From assembly GCA_029862045.1 (NCBI GenBank), contig JAOTYE010000004.1:62001-126000 (forward strand): DNA of 64,000 bases, written 5' to 3'. Each line of letters begins with the position of its first letter. Within the stretch, counting starts at the first letter, position 1. The notes under the pieces were generated by a model. That model worked only from the letters and a program-made list of their open reading frames with translations, had not been told where the DNA came from and ran no database searches. Made by a program: the position numbers and the translations under genes. Shown here one piece after another: positions 7,635 to 29,511 of this stretch. Origin of the DNA: Gammaproteobacteria bacterium. GTDB lineage: Bacteria > Pseudomonadota > Gammaproteobacteria > Steroidobacterales > Woeseiaceae.

Positions 7635-10280
7635 ATGCGAAAACCTACTGCGCTCTCCGCGGCGATTAGCGGAATATTGTTCGGCGCAGCAATGGCCCCA
7701 CAAGGGGTGGCTGTTGCGCAGGAACAAGGTGATTCCGAGGTACTCGAGGAAATCATCACAACAGGAAGCCGCATTGTTCGGACAGACAAGTTCGACACTG
7801 CCGGTCATGTCATTAACGTTGACGAACAGCAAATCGACGCACTTGCAGAACTGAACATCGCTGACGTTCTGCGCGCATCGCCGCTGAATGCTTACGGCTC
7901 GTTTAGCGAGCGTTCCGGCAGCTCTGCTCAGTCAAATGCAACCTTCGACCTTCGTGGTCTGGGCAGCCAGCGCACGCTGGTGTTGTTTGACGGCATGCGT
8001 CTCCCGGGAAGCCCGGCTCTCGATGCTGACTCAGTCAACCTCAACATGCTGCCGATGGTAGCGATCAAGCGAATGGATATCCTCGCTGATGGCGCCTCTG
8101 CTGTATACGGTTCAGACGCGGTAGCGGGTGTTGTCAACCTCGTTCCGCACACGAGCTTCGACGGTGTCGAACTGTCACTGCGCTACGGCGATCGCGACAG
8201 GGACGATGGCGGCGACGTAAGCATGGGCTTAATTGCTGGTGCGGAAGGCGATCGTGGCAGCGTTCTCTTTGCTATCGAGTATTCGAAGCGCGATCCGGTG
8301 TTCGACGCTGAACGCGAATTCACGGCACCTTACATCGACGATGCGGGCCGCGGCGATGGCGACGGTGTCGTTGAAGCCTATGTCGACACAGATGGTATCT
8401 CGTACTTCGGCCGTACCTGGGAACTCTATGATCCCACTACCGGCTACTACGAGCTCGCCGCTGCTGCTGACTGCCCGACGACGGGTGGTTTCACGGGTGT
8501 TATGGGCGCCGAAGCATTGGGTGAGCCTGACGGCACGCTGTGCACGTTTGCTTACGCTGGCATTTCGGCCAACCGCGCCGAACTCGAGAAAATCAACACG
8601 TACATGTACGGAACATATGAAGTTTCGGATGACGTAGAGATGTATGCGCGCGCATTGTTCGCGAAGAATGAATCGTTTGGACGTTACGCTCCGCCGGCAG
8701 CCAGCTGGCCGAACCCGCCTGCGAGTCATCCGCACAATCCGTTTGACCTCGCGGCGCTGGATGCTGCAGGCACGATTGATCAGACAACGGCTGAGCTCTG
8801 GGGCTACTACCGTTGGACGAACATCGGTCCGCGCAACAACTTCGTAAGCGATACGCAGTGGGACATCTCGCTGGGCTTCAAGGGTGATGTGACAGACAAT
8901 GTCTCCTTTGATTTCTACGCGCAAGGTGGCCGCTACGACTCCAAGGACATCGGCAACTACTACCTCTCGCTCACGGGTCTCGACTACGTTCTGAACAACG
9001 GAATCGATCCGTTCAGTGATGCCGGTGCTTTCGCCATGCGTGCACAGCCGATTCAGGACAACTTCACCAAGCAGAACAAGGTTTATGGCCATGTTCAGTT
9101 TGGCACGGGTGACCTGTTCGGTGCTGGCGAGGCGATCGCCCTGCTCGGCGCGGAGTACGTGGACACCGAATATCAGAACCTCTACGATCCGCAGTCTGAA
9201 GCGGGCCTGATCGGTGGTTCAGCCGGTAACTCGAGCACTGGTGTTCGTGATTTCACGTCGATATTCTTCGAGTGGTTATTGCCGGTATCGGAAAACTCGG
9301 AACTGAACTTTGCCGCCCGTTACGACGATTACAGCGACTTTGGTACCGCAACCTCGCCGACGATCAGCTACAACATCAATGTAACTGATACGCTGGCGTT
9401 GCGTGCACGCTGGGGTCAGGGCTTCAAGGCCCCGTCGTTGGCTGACCTGTTCGGTCCGGAGACGTTCTCTGCTGAAGATGCTGTTGATCCGATTACGGGT
9501 GTGAGTCGTCAATTTACTACGTACTTCAACACCAACCCGGATCTCGACGCTGAGGAATCGGACTCGTATTCTGTTGGTCTGAACTGGGAGTATGTGGACG
9601 GCCACTCGATCGACATTGCGTATTATGCGGTCGAGATAACCGACGTCATCTCGACGCCGACTGCGCAGAGCCTGCTCTTTGCGGATGCTGCTGGTATCTC
9701 GTTCGATCCGAACGGTTCACGCGTAGTTCGCCTGCCTAACAACAATGTGGACGAGATCTACTCGTTCTCGGAAAATGGTGGCGATCTCGAAGTCAACGGT
9801 ATCGATCTTCAGCTTGCAAGCAGTTTCGACACGAGTGCCGGACTCTGGGATGCGCGTCTGTTCTGGTCGCATCAGTTGGAGTACAAGCAGAATGCGTACT
9901 TCAAGGGTGCTTTCCAGGATACGGCCGGCTACAATATGCAGCCACAGGACCGTGCTCAGGCATCTATGACCTGGTCGATGGGCAACAATGCGGTTGACCT
10001 GGTCGTCAACTACATCGGTGCACATTCCGAAATGGACATGGTCGACGAAACGACCGGCGTTCTGTCAACCAGCAACGTGGATCTGGACACCTGGACGACG
10101 GCCAATTTGTCGTACCGCTACGATGCGGGTGAGTGGGGTCAGGTGAAGATTGGCGCCAACAACGTCACGGATGAAGATCCGGTTATGGACTTCGAGGGCA
10201 AGTATGCTCGTGATCACTACGATCTGTACGACCCCCTCGGTCGTGTCTATTACCTTGAGTACAGAAAGACGTTTGACTAA
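7635..10280 (+). CDS. TonB-dependent outer-membrane receptor
   Basis: An 881-residue outer-membrane receptor for active uptake of a scarce substrate powered by TonB-ExbBD. ATG 7635 gives a clear signal peptide (MRKPTALSAAISGILFGAAM... ending AVAQ). A TonB-box-like segment LEEIITTGSRI precedes the plug domain, which carries FDLRGLGSQRTLVLFDGMR and DGASAVYGSDAVAGVVNLV. The rest is a 22-strand-type barrel with RARWGQGFKAPSLADLFG and a C-terminus ending YYLEYRKTFD, an aromatic-terminated last strand. The plug resembles the large Caulobacter/Xanthomonas-type receptors often used for glycans or peptides. It ends at a strong terminator, and modification-type enzymes follow. Confidence 0.95.
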   Translation: MRKPTALSAAISGILFGAAMAPQGVAVAQEQGDSEVLEEIITTGSRIVRTDKFDTAGHVINVDEQQIDALAELNIADVLRASPLNAYGSFSERSGSSAQSNATFDLRGLGSQRTLVLFDGMRLPGSPALDADSVNLNMLPMVAIKRMDILADGASAVYGSDAVAGVVNLVPHTSFDGVELSLRYGDRDRDDGGDVSMGLIAGAEGDRGSVLFAIEYSKRDPVFDAEREFTAPYIDDAGRGDGDGVVEAYVDTDGISYFGRTWELYDPTTGYYELAAAADCPTTGGFTGVMGAEALGEPDGTLCTFAYAGISANRAELEKINTYMYGTYEVSDDVEMYARALFAKNESFGRYAPPAASWPNPPASHPHNPFDLAALDAAGTIDQTTAELWGYYRWTNIGPRNNFVSDTQWDISLGFKGDVTDNVSFDFYAQGGRYDSKDIGNYYLSLTGLDYVLNNGIDPFSDAGAFAMRAQPIQDNFTKQNKVYGHVQFGTGDLFGAGEAIALLGAEYVDTEYQNLYDPQSEAGLIGGSAGNSSTGVRDFTSIFFEWLLPVSENSELNFAARYDDYSDFGTATSPTISYNINVTDTLALRARWGQGFKAPSLADLFGPETFSAEDAVDPITGVSRQFTTYFNTNPDLDAEESDSYSVGLNWEYVDGHSIDIAYYAVEITDVISTPTAQSLLFADAAGISFDPNGSRVVRLPNNNVDEIYSFSENGGDLEVNGIDLQLASSFDTSAGLWDARLFWSHQLEYKQNAYFKGAFQDTAGYNMQPQDRAQASMTWSMGNNAVDLVVNYIGAHSEMDMVDETTGVLSTSNVDLDTWTTANLSYRYDAGEWGQVKIGANNVTDEDPVMDFEGKYARDHYDLYDPLGRVYYLEYRKTFD

Positions 10281-24061: not shown

Positions 24062-24187
24062 GCCGCAGTTCGGAGCCACGTCAGCAGAAGTAAAGCGCAG
24101 CGTACTCAACAAGGTACAAAGTCTCAGTCCGATCGTTAGAAGGCTATCGGACCGAGCCATGAAGATGACGTGGCTCCGAGATGCGGC
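24062..24187 (+). repeat. Dispersed intergenic repeat, full copy 2
   Basis: The core at about 24084-24165 shares about 80 bp with copy 3, with only about five differences, and contains an inner hairpin GTCCGAT/ATCGGAC with a 12-nt loop. The arms 24062-24083 and 24166-24187 pair with each other over 19 of 22 positions (CGGAGCCACGTCA with TGACGTGGCTCCG, then GCCGCA with TGCGGC). The arm sequence is unrelated to the arms of the other copies. It starts two bases after the L,D-transpeptidase stop codon and ends 20 bp before the dsbA-like stop, filling a convergent gap. Confidence 0.85.
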
Positions 24188-24206: not shown

Positions 24207-25049
24207 CTAGCGGGCGCTTTCTCTGACGATGAGTTCGTCAATGAGCTCGATCAACTTGGGATAGCTGCCGGCTTCCTTGGCACCGCTGCGGTACTTGCCA
24301 TTGACCACAATCATCGGTGTGCTCGCGATGCTGTAGCGGCGCGCCAGGTCTTGCGCGACGCGGAGCTTCTGATCGACTTCGAACGATTTCCAGGTGCGAC
24401 TGAAATCCTCAGCGCTGACGCCGAAGCGTTCAAATAGTTTCTGGATTGCGCCCTCCGAGCTCAGTCGGTTGTTACGACGGTGAATCTCCTCGTATACGGC
24501 ATCGTGAAATGCTGCGCCATCCGCGATGACGCCGTTCCGGGCCAGGATTTCATTCGTGTAATACATACGCGCGTGCAGAATGAGGAAGGCATTCCACGTC
24601 GCGGGCACCTGGACGAAGCGCACATTAGCCGGCTTGTTCTCGGCCCAGCCTTTGATCGCGGGCTCGAAGTTGTAGCAATGCGGGCACATATAATAGAAAA
24701 ATTCGGCGACCTCGATCTTGTCAGCGCCACCGACGGTCGGCTGCGCCGGTACGAGACGTATGTAATTCTGGCCTTCCTTGAATTGCCATTCGCGGGCTGC
24801 GGTCGGCGCATCGGCCTGTGCCAGCAGGATCGCCTGTTCGTCCGCCTCGGGCTCTGCAGCCGACTCTTCAACGACTTCGATCGTCTCGTCTACTGTGTCT
24901 GCCTCGGTGGCTTCCTGCGCAGCGTCGACTTCATCGACCAGCGGCTCTGCGACGGTCGGTTGTTCGTCGGCCGCGGGCGCTGCGGCTTCTTCAGTGCCAC
25001 AGGCAACGAGGAACAAGCAGAGCAAACTCAAGAGAAGTGTGTGTTTCAT
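24207..25049 (-). CDS. DsbA-like thiol:disulfide oxidoreductase, lipoprotein with acidic linker
   Basis: A 280-residue lipoprotein (LLCLFLVAC, lipid Cys17). A low-complexity stretch of about 70 residues rich in Ala, Glu and Asp precedes a thioredoxin fold with helical insertion. The active site is YYMCPHCYNF, matching the DsbA CPHC, and the cis-Pro loop is STPMIVVNG. Typical DsbA proteins are soluble; here the lipid anchor plus acidic tether would keep the enzyme at a membrane. It oxidises secreted protein thiols. Its ATG overlaps the stop of the cytochrome c4 gene (TAATG), so the two are translationally coupled. Confidence 0.9.
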   Translation of the reverse strand: MKHTLLLSLLCLFLVACGTEEAAAPAADEQPTVAEPLVDEVDAAQEATEADTVDETIEVVEESAAEPEADEQAILLAQADAPTAAREWQFKEGQNYIRLVPAQPTVGGADKIEVAEFFYYMCPHCYNFEPAIKGWAENKPANVRFVQVPATWNAFLILHARMYYTNEILARNGVIADGAAFHDAVYEEIHRRNNRLSSEGAIQKLFERFGVSAEDFSRTWKSFEVDQKLRVAQDLARRYSIASTPMIVVNGKYRSGAKEAGSYPKLIELIDELIVRESAR

Positions 25050-25678
25050 TACCGCAAACCTTGTACGTAGGAGGCGACGGCGTTGATATCGTCTTCGCTC
25101 AGACGAGCCGCGATGTCTCGCATGATGCGCGTCTTGCCGTCCGACGTGCGCGCCTCATTTGCATAGTCACGTAACTGCTTTGCAGTATACGTCGCGTGCT
25201 GTCCCTGGAGGGCCGGGTAAAGAGCTGCCGGATTGCCGCGGCCGGTTGGGCCATGGCACGCGAGGCAAGCCGCGACACCGTTGTCGCCGTTGCCACCTCG
25301 ATAAAGGGCTTCACCCTTGTCGACTTTGGATGGGTCGCCAACAGCCATTGCCGGGGCAGGAAGGCTCTCGAAGTAGACCGCGACGTCATGCATGTCCTCA
25401 TCAGACAGCAGCATCGCCTGGGACGTCATCAGCGGATCCATGCGCGAGCCGTTCTTGAACGCGCTGAGTTGGCCGATAATGTAATTCGCGTTCTGGCCGG
25501 CTATGTTCGGCCACAGCGGGTTAACGCTGTTGCCTTCGGCGCCGTGACACGCTGTGCAGGTAATCGACTTGCTCTTGCCGGCCTCGATCGAACCTTCGGC
25601 AAGACTCTCGGCCTGAGCCTGGAATGCTGCCAGTACAATAGCAAGCGGCAGCAAAATCGTAGCTATCCTGGTATTCAT
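25049..25678 (-). CDS. Cytochrome c4 (di-haem c-type cytochrome)
   Basis: A 209-residue exported protein (signal ending AAFQAQA). Two CxxCH haem sites, CTACH and CLACH, begin about equal halves; a methionine ligand probably lies in each half (for example RMDPLMTSQAMLL and TRIMRDIAARL). The repeated class I domains and GEALYRGGNGDNG are typical of cytochrome c4, which shuttles electrons in the periplasm to terminal oxidases. It is first of a two-gene unit with the DsbA-like gene; c4 followed by a DsbA is a common gammaproteobacterial arrangement. Confidence 0.92.
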   Translation of the reverse strand: MNTRIATILLPLAIVLAAFQAQAESLAEGSIEAGKSKSITCTACHGAEGNSVNPLWPNIAGQNANYIIGQLSAFKNGSRMDPLMTSQAMLLSDEDMHDVAVYFESLPAPAMAVGDPSKVDKGEALYRGGNGDNGVAACLACHGPTGRGNPAALYPALQGQHATYTAKQLRDYANEARTSDGKTRIMRDIAARLSEDDINAVASYVQGLR

Positions 25679-25870
25679 GTTCTCGTAACCGTTACTTCCT
25701 CGCGGTGGTCGCAGCCATCGCCTGTTTTAGATTCGATTTTTCGCGCCTTTTCCGCGCCATCTGATGAGCCGGCGTCGGGCCGCAAGGGTTTTGATTACCT
25801 TGCTGCGTGACCCTGAAGCCGTCAGACTGTGAACCCCAAATTATACACAGAATCCCCGGGGCATACCCCC
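25679..25870. promoter_or_regulatory. Divergent promoter gap between cytochrome c4 and engB
   Basis: These 192 bp separate the leftward cytochrome c4 gene from rightward engB and must hold both promoters. No strong consensus promoter or operator stands out. Confidence 0.3.
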
Positions 25871-26461
25871 ATGTCGCACTACCCCGAAGCCCGATTCATC
25901 ACGAGCGCGAATGCCCGGAAACAGTTCGTTCCCGACACGGGCGTCGAGGTCGCCGTCGCCGGCCGCTCGAACGCCGGCAAGTCGAGCGCGATCAATGTCA
26001 TCGTCAACCGGCGCCGGTTTGCGAGGACAAGCAAGACGCCGGGGCGCACCCGGCTGGTCAATTTTTTCAGCCTGCGCGACGACCAGCGCCTCGTCGATTT
26101 ACCCGGGTATGGCTTTGCCCGTGTTGCGGATTCGATGCGCGAGCACTGGGGGGAACTGCTTGCCGAGTACTTCCAATCGCGGCAGAGCCTCAGGGGTCTG
26201 CTAATGATCGTCGATATCCGGCGGCAACTGAAAGACTACGACAGGCAAATGATGGCGTTCGCCGAGGCCGTCAACGTGCCGATACACATCTTGCTGACCA
26301 AGGCCGACAAACTGAAAAAGGGCCAGGCGTCGCGGGCAGTTCTCGAAGTCCGCAAGGAAGTCGGTGACCGTGCGACCGTGCAGCAATTCTCGGCCCTTAG
26401 CAGACAGGGCGAGAATGAGGCACGTGAGGTTCTGCAGCGTTTGCTTACGTCCGAGCCATAA
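25871..26461 (+). CDS. engB: Ribosome biogenesis GTP-binding protein EngB/YihA
   Basis: A 196-residue GTPase acting in large-subunit ribosome assembly. All G motifs are present: GRSNAGKSS (G1), TSKTPGRT (G2), DLPGYGFA (G3), TKADK (G4) and SALSRQG (G5). ATG 25871 gives MSHYPEARFITSA, which lines up with the N-terminus of other family members; a GTG 42 bp upstream would add an unusual extension. The TAA stop merges with an A-run that forms the U-tract of a terminator on the other strand. It is convergent with polA across an intergenic RNA candidate, the same order as E. coli polA-spf-yihA. Confidence 0.95.
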   Translation: MSHYPEARFITSANARKQFVPDTGVEVAVAGRSNAGKSSAINVIVNRRRFARTSKTPGRTRLVNFFSLRDDQRLVDLPGYGFARVADSMREHWGELLAEYFQSRQSLRGLLMIVDIRRQLKDYDRQMMAFAEAVNVPIHILLTKADKLKKGQASRAVLEVRKEVGDRATVQQFSALSRQGENEAREVLQRLLTSEP

Positions 26462-26492
26462 AAAAAACCCCGGTGCACAAAGTGCCCCGGGG
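26460..26492 (-). terminator. Intrinsic terminator of the sRNA candidate (or of polA)
   Basis: Minus strand: CCCCGGGGCAC, loop TTT, GTGCACCGGGG (11 bp with one G.T-type mismatch), then eight T that overlap the engB stop codon on the other strand. It is very strong and points leftward. Confidence 0.9.
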
Positions 26493-26571
26493 AATCAAGA
26501 AGCAACCGGCTTGGGGTTACCGGATTGCACGCCTGTTTAGGGAGGTAAACAGGCGAGTGACTTGCACTCAT
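26460..26571 (-). ncRNA. Candidate sRNA at the Spot 42/ErsA locus
   Basis: Read on the minus strand from about 26570, the segment folds into four parts. The first is a small hairpin GAGTG/CACTC. The second is a perfect 10-bp stem CGCCTGTTTA/TAAACAGGCG (26530-26555) presenting a CCTCCC loop. The third is a CCGG/CCGG hairpin. The last is the terminator CCCCGGGGCAC/GTGCACCGGGG followed by eight T (26460-26492). The length, about 110 nt, matches Spot 42. In E. coli spf, and in Pseudomonas ersA, lie between polA and engB/yihA as here, on the polA strand. An unpaired CCUCCC is complementary to Shine-Dalgarno sequences. Expression and function are inferred. Confidence 0.65.
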
Positions 26572-26575
26572 GGGA

Positions 26576-26603
26576 TTGGAGTCTGCCTGCACGCCATAGT
26601 TCC
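26576..26603 (-). promoter_or_regulatory. Sigma-E-like promoter candidate for the sRNA
   Basis: On the minus strand GGAACTA (26603-26597), a 16-nt spacer, then TCCAA (26580-26576). This resembles the RpoE/AlgU consensus GGAACTT-N16-TCnnA. It would start transcription near 26570, giving an RNA of about 110 nt to the terminator. Pseudomonas ErsA at the same locus depends on AlgU, which makes the match more interesting, but only one -10 element is weakly matched and the site is unproven. Confidence 0.45.
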
Positions 26604-26662
26604 ACACAATCCGTAACCTTTGGAAAAATAAGGAAAAAAGCATTAGACTGAGTCTTGATGAT

Positions 26663-26798
26663 GGGCGGTCGTGGGCGGAAGCCTGCTCATCGGAAGTAAA
26701 GCGCAGCGTACTCAACAAGGTGCAAAGTTTCAGTCCGATCGTTAGTAGGCTATCGGACCGAGCCATGAAGATGAGCAGGCTTCCGCCCACGACCGCCC
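26663..26798 (+). repeat. Dispersed intergenic repeat, full copy 3
   Basis: Arms 26663-26690 and 26771-26798 are a perfect 28-bp inverted repeat (GGGCGGTCGTGGGCGGAAGC... ending GCTCAT). They enclose an 80-bp core nearly identical to that of copy 2, including the GTCCGAT/ATCGGAC inner hairpin (26734-26740, 26753-26759). The arms share no sequence with those of copy 2. It sits between the sRNA candidate and the polA stop codon (26815), within a convergent intergenic region. Confidence 0.88.
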
Positions 26799-26814
26799 GC
26801 CGCGCCGGCTCCTG

Positions 26815-29511
26815 CTAATGCGCTTCGTCCCAGTTCTTTCCGATGCCGACGTCGACTTTTAACGGTACTGAGAGATCCGCGGCCGAACACATGATGCCGG
26901 TGACTCTGTCGCGGAACGAATCCACGTTGTCTTTGGCAACTTCGAAGACGAGTTCGTCATGTACCTGCATGATCATGCGGCCGCTGGTGTCGTTATTTGT
27001 CAGCCAGTCGTGCACGTTGATCATCGCCCGCTTGATGATGTCGGCCGCCGTACCTTGCATTGGAGCATTAATCGCGCTGCGTTCGGCATACTGACGGCGC
27101 TGCGCATTGCGCCCATTGATCTCGGGCAGATACAGACGCCGGCCGAAAACCGTTTCAACGTAGCCTTGTTGGCGCGCTTTTTCACGAGTGCCGTCCATGT
27201 AGGCTTTGACGCCGGGATAACGGTCGAAATACAGGTCGACATACTCTTGCGCCTCGTTACGCGGAATCCCGAGTTGCTTGCCGAGACCAAAAGACGACAT
27301 GCCGTACATCAGGCCGAAGTTGATCGCTTTCGCTGAGCGCCGCTGATCAAGCGTCACGGCATCGAGGTCGACCTCGAACACCTCGGCAGCGGTCGCGCGA
27401 TGCACATCCAGTTCATCAGCAAACGCTTTCCGCAGCCCTGCGTCGGCTGACAGGTGGGCCATGATGCGCAACTCGATCTGCGAGTAGTCTGCGGCAAGCA
27501 ACACCTGATCCCGGGGCGCAATAAATGCCTGCCGGATGCGCCGGCCTTCCGGAGTCCGGATCGGAATGTTTTGCAGATTCGGATCGGTCGATGACAATCG
27601 CCCCGTGGCTGCAACCGCCTGGTGATAAGAGGTATGAATGCGTCCTGTGCTCGCGGCGATCTGCAGCGGCAGCTTGTCCGTATAGGTACTCTTGAGTTTA
27701 CTCACGCTGCGGTAGTCGATAATGACGCGCGGTAAATCGTAGTCCTCCGCCAACTCAACCAGAACGTCTTCCGCGGTCGATGGCTGTCCCTTGGGAGTTT
27801 TGCGTACCACCGGCAGCTCGAGTTTTTCAAATAAAATCTGTTGCAATTGTTTGGGAGAGCCGAGGTTAAATGGACCGCCGGCGAGCTCGTGCGCGTCTTT
27901 CTCGAGTTGCACCATCTTTTTTGCGAGCTCGCCGCTCTGTGTCGCGAGCATCTTGCGATCGATCAGAACTCCGGTCTCCTCCATGTCGAGGAGAACCGGC
28001 ACGAGCGGTTGCTCGATGTCGACGTAGACCTTACGCAGCGATTCGATCTCGCCGAGCTTCGACCACAATGTGTTATGCAGCTGCAGTGTGATGTCGGCAT
28101 CTTCGGCCGCATAGGGCGCCGCTGTTTCCAGATCGACCTGATTAAACGTCAGTTGTTTGGCGCCCTTGCCCGCAACATCTTCGTAGTGAATTGTTTCGCG
28201 CCCCAGATAGTGTCGCGCAACCGAGTCCATGTCGTGACGCGTGGCGACACTGTTCAATACGTACGACTCGAGCATTGAATCGAACGCCATGCCGCCCAGG
28301 TGAATGTCATGGCGGGCAAGCACATGCGCGTCGTACTTGAGGTGATGACCGACTTTCTTTTGCTTCGGGCTTTCAAGAAAATCTTTAAGTTTTTCAAATA
28401 CTTTCGCGCGTGGTAACTGGTCCGGTGCGCCCGGATAATCGTGTGCAACCGGGATATACGCTGCCTCGCCTGCCGCGACCGACAACGACATGCCGACGAC
28501 CTCCGCGACCATGTAGTCGAGGCTGGTGGTCTCGGTATCAAAGGCAACGAGGTCAGCTTTGTTGATTCTCTCGAGCCAGGTATCGAATGCTGACCAACTT
28601 AAAATCGTCTCGTAGTTGCGATCGCTTGTCGCTGGCATATCCGGCTCGGGTGCACCCGCCTGCTCGTCAAGTTGCCGCAGAAGCGTGCGCAGCTCGAATC
28701 GTCCGTATAACTCACGCAGTTTGTCGGTTTCGGCGGCAGCTGGCTTGAGATCGTGCACGGCGACGGGCAAGTCGACGTCAAGGCGTATCGTCGCCAGCTG
28801 TTGTGACAACTTCAGTTGTTCGATGTTGTCGCGCAGGCTCTCGCCGACCTTGCCCGTGATGTCGTCCGCGTTGTCGATGATGCCGACGACGCTTGCGTAT
28901 TGATTGAGCCATTTCGCCGCCGTCTTGGCGCCGACCTTTGGTACGCCCGGAATATTGTCGGAACTGTCACCGACGAGCGCGAGGTAGTCGATGATTTGCT
29001 CGGGATAAACGTCGAACTTCGCCTTGACGCCGTCACGGTCAAGAAGGCTTTCGCTCATCGTATTGACGAGCGTGACGTTGTCGTTGACAAGTTGCGCCAT
29101 GTCCTTGTCGCCCGTTGAGACGAGTACGCTAAGGCCGCTGGCGGCAGCGTCATGGCACAAGGTGCCGATGACGTCGTCGGCTTCGACGCCCTGCACCTGG
29201 AGTAACGGCAGCCCCATCGATTTCACCGCGTCGAGCAATGGTCCGACCTGTTCGCGCAATTCATCCGGCATCGGCGGACGATTGGCTTTGTACTCCGCGT
29301 ACAGTTCGTCGCGGAAAGTCTTGCCCGGCGCATCGAATACGACGCCGACGTGCGCCGTGGGTTGCTCACGCACGAGTTTGTTAATCATCGACAGCACGCC
29401 GTGCAGCGCACCGGTGGGTTCGCCCGCGGAATTGGTGAGATTGGGTAGCGCGTGGAACGCCCTGTACAAATAGGACGAACCGTCGATGAGTACCAGGTCA
29501 ACGCCAGACAT
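26815..29511 (-). CDS. polA: DNA polymerase I
   Basis: An 898-residue protein of normal length with all three domains. The 5' nuclease (residues 1-290) has LIDGSSYLYRAFHAL, TGDKDMAQLV and VGDSSDNIPG. The 3'-5' exonuclease (about 305-500) has VAFDTETTSLDYM and YAAEDADITLQL, so proofreading residues appear intact. The polymerase has motif A DYSQIELRIMAHLS, motif B RRSAKAINFGLMYGMS and motif C MQVHDELVFEV. It fills gaps and removes RNA primers during replication and repair. The lptM gene lies 15 bp upstream on the same strand. Confidence 0.98.
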   Translation of the reverse strand: MSGVDLVLIDGSSYLYRAFHALPNLTNSAGEPTGALHGVLSMINKLVREQPTAHVGVVFDAPGKTFRDELYAEYKANRPPMPDELREQVGPLLDAVKSMGLPLLQVQGVEADDVIGTLCHDAAASGLSVLVSTGDKDMAQLVNDNVTLVNTMSESLLDRDGVKAKFDVYPEQIIDYLALVGDSSDNIPGVPKVGAKTAAKWLNQYASVVGIIDNADDITGKVGESLRDNIEQLKLSQQLATIRLDVDLPVAVHDLKPAAAETDKLRELYGRFELRTLLRQLDEQAGAPEPDMPATSDRNYETILSWSAFDTWLERINKADLVAFDTETTSLDYMVAEVVGMSLSVAAGEAAYIPVAHDYPGAPDQLPRAKVFEKLKDFLESPKQKKVGHHLKYDAHVLARHDIHLGGMAFDSMLESYVLNSVATRHDMDSVARHYLGRETIHYEDVAGKGAKQLTFNQVDLETAAPYAAEDADITLQLHNTLWSKLGEIESLRKVYVDIEQPLVPVLLDMEETGVLIDRKMLATQSGELAKKMVQLEKDAHELAGGPFNLGSPKQLQQILFEKLELPVVRKTPKGQPSTAEDVLVELAEDYDLPRVIIDYRSVSKLKSTYTDKLPLQIAASTGRIHTSYHQAVAATGRLSSTDPNLQNIPIRTPEGRRIRQAFIAPRDQVLLAADYSQIELRIMAHLSADAGLRKAFADELDVHRATAAEVFEVDLDAVTLDQRRSAKAINFGLMYGMSSFGLGKQLGIPRNEAQEYVDLYFDRYPGVKAYMDGTREKARQQGYVETVFGRRLYLPEINGRNAQRRQYAERSAINAPMQGTAADIIKRAMINVHDWLTNNDTSGRMIMQVHDELVFEVAKDNVDSFRDRVTGIMCSAADLSVPLKVDVGIGKNWDEAH

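Follow-up and report, generated by a model that had tools for sequence, protein, structure and literature searches.

The gap between polA and engB in a genome of the Woeseiaceae very probably contains a real small RNA (sRNA) gene, and from our point of view the most interesting aspect is that this RNA exposes a class-wide family of polA-engB sRNAs that may unite several sRNAs which already carry names. The window, i.e. the whole stretch of 64,000 nucleotides that was analysed (GenBank assembly GCA_029862045.1, contig JAOTYE010000004.1), holds the element on its minus strand, where positions 26570-26460 read as a predicted RNA of 111 nt within the polA-engB gap. A literature search for Woeseia together with small RNA found no sRNA report for the Woeseiaceae, the papers it gave being judged by title and the beginning of the abstract. 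The features of the locus, in coordinates of the window, are as follows:

26815..29511, minus strand: polA, DNA polymerase I, upstream of the sRNA (Pfam DNA_pol_A and exonuclease domains)
26597..26603, minus strand: -35-like element GGAACTA of the sigma-E type (sequence; kept in the copies)
26576..26580, minus strand: -10-like element TCCAA, separated from the -35 element by 16 nt (sequence; copies)
26460..26570, minus strand: sRNA gene; the predicted RNA has about 111 nt, its 5' end being placed from the -10 element
26555..26569, minus strand: hairpin 1, GAGTG-CAAGT-CACTC (sequence, fold)
26530..26555, minus strand: hairpin 2, perfect 10-bp stem with the loop CCTCCC at 26545-26540 (sequence, fold, covariation)
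26502..26528, minus strand: hairpin 3 with the C-rich loop AACCCCAA (sequence, fold, covariation)
26460..26492, minus strand: intrinsic terminator, stem 26492-26468 followed by eight T at 26467-26460 (sequence, fold)
25829..26461, plus strand: engB, the convergent neighbour (Pfam MMR_HSR1), which we take to encode a GTPase of the YihA/YsxC type

Base 26555 is contested between hairpin 1 and the outermost pair of hairpin 2, the arms and loop of which read CGCCTGTTTA-CCTCCC-TAAACAGGCG, and the T run of the terminator shares bases with the stop codon of engB, which is on the opposite strand. Folded alone, 26570-26460 forms four hairpins with a free energy of -48.8 kcal/mol (z -5.18; none of 200 dinucleotide shuffles was as good), and two of the four loops are C-rich in this polA-adjacent RNA of several hairpins. 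The 144-nt stretch of the original prediction (26460..26603), which comprises the RNA plus its promoter, reached a z of -2.98, with 3 of 200 shuffles as good. That prediction had described a promoter-like GGAACTA-N16-TCCAA, a perfect 10-bp hairpin exposing CCUCCC, and further hairpins with a terminator of eight U, about 110 nt in all, on the polA strand between polA and engB; each of these elements was found again in the window, the location also in those genus copies that have flanks.

Some further observations concern the DNA around the element. The next gene after engB in the window, at 25049-25678, presumably encodes a cytochrome c4-like protein. Between polA and the sRNA promoter sits an inverted repeat (26640-26821) with arms of 52 nt, 79% complementarity and 78 nt between them, a MITE/REP-like element of which the genome has six further copies with 90-96% identity over 79-132 nt, one of them at window positions 24081-24168, together with many additional shorter or weaker matches. 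Just 5' of the -35 element (about 26604-26660 and in relatives) a conserved block tttca...a.tTac is found in 61 of 73 copies by a loose pattern, and a palindrome TTTAGACT-n-TCTAAA, spotted by eye, lies still further 5'; block and palindrome may represent the site of a second regulator or a weak polA terminator.

Within the same genus, the sRNA was detected by blastn in 35 of 37 genomes, and wherever flanks are present in the genus copies, polA lies upstream and engB downstream. CTCCCT is present in all copies that blastn found in these 35 genomes, a search without any motif filter, and the CCUCCC stem-loop is hence kept in relatives with the polA-engB order, on which the original prediction had made its own survival depend. 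None of 23 genomes from other families of the order gave a blastn match. A covariance model derived from a 67-row alignment of Woeseiaceae-type relatives (R1) recovered the sRNA in both blastn-negative genomes of the genus as well as in genome G225, so that blastn and R1 together account for 38 of 38 genus genomes, and of the 23 genomes from other families 16 gave an R1 match and seven did not. R1 is sparing in its matches: in none of 26 whole genomes does it have more than one at E <= 0.01. Of the 19 loci found in this way, 18 show engB and/or polA, and L239 shows neither.

Relatives of the window's engB occur in records named Woeseiaceae, Woeseia, Gammaproteobacteria, Proteobacteria and Chromatiales, with one from Nevskiales, and thereby point to a host of the Woeseiaceae type. 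At 65 of 72 such named engB loci, many of which served as training rows of R1 or lie on the same contigs as the genus genomes, the model matches, always behind engB, on the opposite strand and within about 600 bp; L078 shows only a piece and L068 is matched twice. No match was obtained at the seven named loci L109, L110, L111, L113, L114, L115 and L119, where the sRNA has possibly been lost. Two sRNA copies are present in the Woeseiaceae-type genomes G016 and G009; since runs of N stand between or inside these copies, they may be an assembly artefact.

The same 67 relatives provide evidence that the structure is under selection for pairing, in that 99.0% of the alignment cells pair. Before the alignment was made, spurious pattern matches (L043 minus, L106 plus and window position 8781), three copies with N runs and the copies L006, L018, L074 and L099 with bad ends had been removed. 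Changes on both sides of a pair occur in 8 of 20 pairs (shuffled mean 2.3, with 0 of 500 shuffles as high), and this number falls to between one and four if the partners are slid against each other. Hairpin 2 contributes most, with 6 of its 9 modelled pairs changed on both sides and 98.7% of cells paired, followed by hairpin 3 with 2 of 7 pairs (98.5-98.9% of cells paired); in hairpin 1 all cells pair with zero double changes, which makes it too invariant to tell. As the structure came from the same alignment and the relatedness of the rows inflates counts of this kind, we place the weight on the double changes in hairpin 2. The invariance of CTCCCT in the alignment exists by construction, as the rows were found by a pattern requiring it.

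Ahead of the sRNA, 73 of 74 Woeseiaceae-type copies carry a promoter motif with the consensus gGGAACT - 16 - cTCtAAt. The -35 site reads GAACT in 64 copies, GAACC in 6 and GAATT in 3, the last one being cut by a contig end, and by a loose pattern the spacer measures 15 or 16 in 69 of the 73. This motif bears on two other readings of the element. It could be imagined that (i) the element belongs to polA, as its structured 3' end or terminator region, and is no independent gene, which would agree with its position on the polA strand close behind polA. We regard this as very unlikely, and as a sole explanation we have rejected it, given that nearly every copy has the promoter motif; furthermore, the distance between polA and the sRNA varies widely and in the window contains the inverted-repeat element, six class members lie on the engB strand, and tandem copies occur. 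Or (ii) a short coding gene could start from the ATG at 26572, whose frame runs through the element in the window and remains open for more than 20 codons in 26 of the 74 copies. An ATG is, however, present at that place in only 9 copies, a stop codon follows within 10 codons in 34 copies and within 20 in 14 more, and the substitutions preserve base pairs. With neither frame nor ATG kept among the 74 copies, the coding reading has been dropped, and we give it next to no chance.

The small RNA gene remains the preferred reading. The genome encodes an RpoE protein (292.4 bits against an NCBIfam cut-off of 236.15), the gene next to rpoE contains an RseA_N domain (Pfam), and 73 nt before the rpoE start a GAACTT-N16-TCTA sequence is found. 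Together with the conserved promoter motif, these findings make control of the sRNA by sigma-E likely; at the level of sequence, both a promoter of the GAACTT-N16-TC..A type and an rpoE gene are present. In this genome (G000), 14 places match the RpoE profile, one of them above the cut-off, and many ECF sigma factors are probably encoded there.

At the gathering threshold, no Rfam family was found in the window. Under relaxed conditions, the anti-hemB model (RF02837) matches 26556-26460 over its full length (positions 1-81 of 81) with 39.5 bits and an E value of 6.9e-8, a score below the gathering cut-off of 49.5 bits. The same model matches in 124 of 274 genomes of the class at E <= 1e-3, 13 of them above the cut-off, and likewise, always below the cut-off, in 3 of 14 control genomes, E. 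coli and Deinobacterium among them; lone weak matches therefore mean little, and the position of a locus is needed as evidence. All class-wide searches (RF02837, RF00021, PrrF, RF01719 and RF02232) were run with stricter Infernal filters and 10 to 16 candidates per genome, and absences in them are soft. For RF02837, 110 loci were fetched (at E <= 1e-4 all except G145:C114, plus L229 at 3.9e-4), and the counts below exclude second copies within a locus as well as the window's own match.

Measured by position, 79 of the 110 loci have polA and/or engB no more than 900 bp away, and these come from 79 genomes in 53 GTDB families. The polA strand is used at 73 of them; the six on the engB strand (L152, L158, L171, L180, L204 and L222) can be read as local inversions or rearrangements. 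Among the remaining 31 loci, 7 adjoin a cytochrome c4-like gene and 24 are near neither polA/engB nor c4, the latter likely being a mix of promoter-bearing members and chance matches. A sequence GAAC[T/C]-N14-18-TC..A no more than 80 nt upstream occurs at 66 of the 79 near loci as compared to 20 of 1161 control windows drawn from those loci, and at 19 of the 31 others as compared to 12 of 429. CCTCCC or CTCCCT falls within the first 35 nt of the match at 74 of the 79 near loci, and these 74 loops are carried by 56 different 5' stem arms, with an uninterrupted stem of at least five pairs around the loop in 63 cases. In sum, sRNAs adjacent to polA or engB with this loop and this promoter motif are widespread in the class.

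R1 matches 85 of the 90 RF02837 loci given to it at E <= 0.1 (it misses L120, L123, L125, L175 and L179) and nothing outside the RF02837 sites and their tandem copies in 270,545 bases, an agreement partly to be expected as the loci had been chosen by RF02837. Among 20 engB stretches from genomes picked because RF02837 has no match there, R1 finds six (E 4.8e-8 to 0.018) and nothing in the other 14; polA is visible in four of the 20 (L253, L265, L266 and L269). Tandem arrays of two to five sRNA copies occur in other families (L165/L272 of genome G229, L169 of G321, L187 of G300, L170, L137, L151 and L124).

With regard to function, the CCUCCC loop is the complement of an extended Shine-Dalgarno sequence, GGGAGG. 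In PMC3771888, repression by the sX13 RNA is described to require C-rich loops and G-rich mRNA motifs, with Hfq being dispensable. ErsA, which is controlled by sigma-22, is described to repress algC and oprD and to stimulate amrZ and anr (PMC7565897, PMC8575079 and PMC5819304). By analogy with the C-rich loops of sX13 and the sigma-22 type control of ErsA, envelope stress would lead to the release of RpoE (sigma-E) from RseA, RNA polymerase with RpoE would then transcribe the sRNA, and the loop CCUCCC (and ACCCCAA) would pair with G-rich Shine-Dalgarno regions and thereby keep a set of mRNAs whose G-rich leaders are exposed from being translated. We consider it probable that the element is such a trans-acting sRNA gene of an old polA-engB family, which would be transcribed with RpoE, pair with ribosome-binding sites and repress mRNAs. 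This explanation is based on the compensatory changes in hairpins 2 and 3, the two conserved C-rich loops, the terminator, the promoter motif and the RNAs at the same locus.

Candidate targets were sought with the pattern GGGAGGT-N2-9-ATG in five genomes of the genus, with open reading frames read for most sites. Genome G000 has 25 such sites as compared to 9 for the reversed pattern, an excess that any Shine-Dalgarno-like pattern would produce, and several of its sites precede genes that look like lipoprotein genes by eye. Genes recurring behind the pattern are those for what we take to be an RpoH-like sigma factor (three of five genomes; Pfam sigma-70 regions) and a NuoE-like protein (two of five), and one further recurring pair is weak (31% identity). 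Of the 61 genus genomes searched, 57 have an rpoH gene, and the 18 readable starts of 30 rpoH loci are preceded by GGGAGG in 5 cases, GGAGG in 12 and neither in one. With GGGAGG before only 5 of 18 starts, rpoH is not claimed as a target, and neither the pattern search in five genomes nor the 18 readable rpoH leaders yielded a target conserved across the genus. Overall, the candidates obtained are weak. Directly upstream of the rpoH-like gene, most readable genus loci (L383-L388 and others) carry TTAGCACTC-n-GAGTGCTAA, which we assume to be a CIRCE-like element.

The lack of a conserved specific target would also agree with a role of the RNA as a titrator that binds an RNA-binding protein, or Shine-Dalgarno sequences in general, instead of regulating specific mRNAs. 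In that case, CCUCCC would copy the anti-Shine-Dalgarno core, and it would be understandable that the loop is kept while the stem varies, as in the 67 relatives and at the near loci of the class. However, the RNA has two C-rich loops of different sequence that are both kept, and sX13 and ErsA, the studied RNAs of the same locus type, act on particular mRNAs. From our point of view, a titrator is hence improbable and regulation of mRNAs remains the preferred function.

Beyond anti-hemB, the models of ErsA (RF01719, Pseudomon-1 in Rfam), sX13 (RF02232), Spot 42 (RF00021) and alpha-r7 (RF02342) do not match anywhere in the window, even at E <= 10. RF01719 matches 10 of the 274 class genomes, with polA or engB visible at all ten loci. 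A single one, L271 in the Pseudomonas-like genome G220 (which is also the sole genome of the 274 above the PrrF cut-off), exceeds the ErsA cut-off; it carries GAACTT-N16-GTCATA behind polA, and R1 does not match it. Of the 9 weaker RF01719 matches, 8 coincide with an RF02837 match (E 2e-11 to 0.13). Similarly, RF02232 matches 12 of the 274 genomes; two of these matches exceed the cut-off, and both adjoin polA. At 7 of the 12 loci polA or engB is visible, and three matches (G229, G140 and G292) are the same RNAs as those found by RF02837. The two strong sX13 copies (L311 and L312) share an upstream cttcacGAACCatcaatgt...TGTTATAg, with GAACC followed about 17 nt on by TGTTATA, which is outside the TC..A pattern used here and possibly represents an ECF-type promoter for sX13, too. 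The tandem array of G229 between polA and engB is matched, always below the respective cut-off, by the models of anti-hemB, ErsA, sX13 and alpha-r14, and for individual RNAs in L272 two or three Rfam families give a match simultaneously, again below the cut-offs. RF02342 gave one weak match at the RNA of a relative (L242; 29.1 bits against a cut-off of 60, E 0.079), and RF00021 none in the 274 class genomes, with a positive E. coli control.

Since the ErsA and sX13 models match some of the same RNAs as the anti-hemB model, these three families appear to be joined via intermediates at one locus, for the most part at modest scores. No publication uniting them was found in a search that largely covered papers outside subscription. 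Their likeness could alternatively be due to convergence, namely if a locus that suits sRNA genes acquired C-rich loops and GC-rich terminators several times over. Direct cross-matches between the models are weak or absent, RF02837 also finds matches in control genomes, and sRNAs with C-rich loops exist in bacteria as distant as Staphylococcus and Helicobacter (PMC3771888). Convergence would, however, hardly account for the near confinement of R1 matches to engB and polA in whole genomes, for the agreement in promoter motif, hairpin order and strand, or for single L272 RNAs being matched by several families; we therefore consider it unlikely. Common descent is the other possibility, and for its most far-reaching form the balance is, in our view, even: ErsA, sX13, anti-hemB and the Woeseiaceae RNA could be one ancient sRNA gene that was passed on together with polA-engB through much of the class, was ancestrally driven by sigma-E and uses its C-rich loops to hold back G-rich ribosome-binding sites in general, with Spot 42 and alpha-r7 maybe being diverged or replaced forms. 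The class in this case would presumably be the Gammaproteobacteria of GTDB, including the former betaproteobacteria. If it is one family, the virulence-studied sRNAs ErsA and sX13 would join a common stress circuit, sigma-E control would be predicted for members where it has never been tested, and one model and one loop could be put to the test in different species.

A comparison with the individual systems places the window RNA among them. Spot 42 of E. coli is encoded between polA and engB and has a length of 109 nt. The original prediction had regarded the element as a positional ortholog of Spot 42 and ErsA with diverged sequence; with Spot 42 the locus alone is in common, as its model matches neither the window nor the class genomes, and Spot 42 is repressed by cAMP-CRP according to the title of a reference in PMC3771888. 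The alpha-r7 RNA of the alphaproteobacteria also resides at the polA locus and has three hairpins with apical C-rich motifs, and sX13 adjoins polA and represses mRNAs with G-rich motifs by hairpins with C-rich loops (both from PMC3771888). With ErsA, whose gene is polA-engB intergenic (PMC8575079) and sigma-22 dependent (PMC7565897), the window RNA shares the place in the polA-engB gap, the orientation along with polA and the sigma-E-type promoter motif. Position, promoter type and anti-Shine-Dalgarno loop of the original prediction are supported by conservation, whereas kinship with ErsA in sequence is seen only through intermediates with mostly weak scores. ErsA differs from the window RNA in its length, 132 nt as against about 111, and in a U-rich domain that, according to PMC8575079, separates its first hairpin from the second. 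The nearest Rfam family is instead anti-hemB, known as Burkholderia RNA 7 and as ncS04 of B. cenocepacia with 105 nt. In contrast to anti-hemB, the window RNA is flanked by polA and engB and not by hemB, and it has an additional 5' hairpin ahead of the part modelled in Rfam. Like anti-hemB, however, it presents the CCUCCC hairpin, a second hairpin and the terminator in the same order, and many relatives resembling RF02837 adjoin polA-engB.
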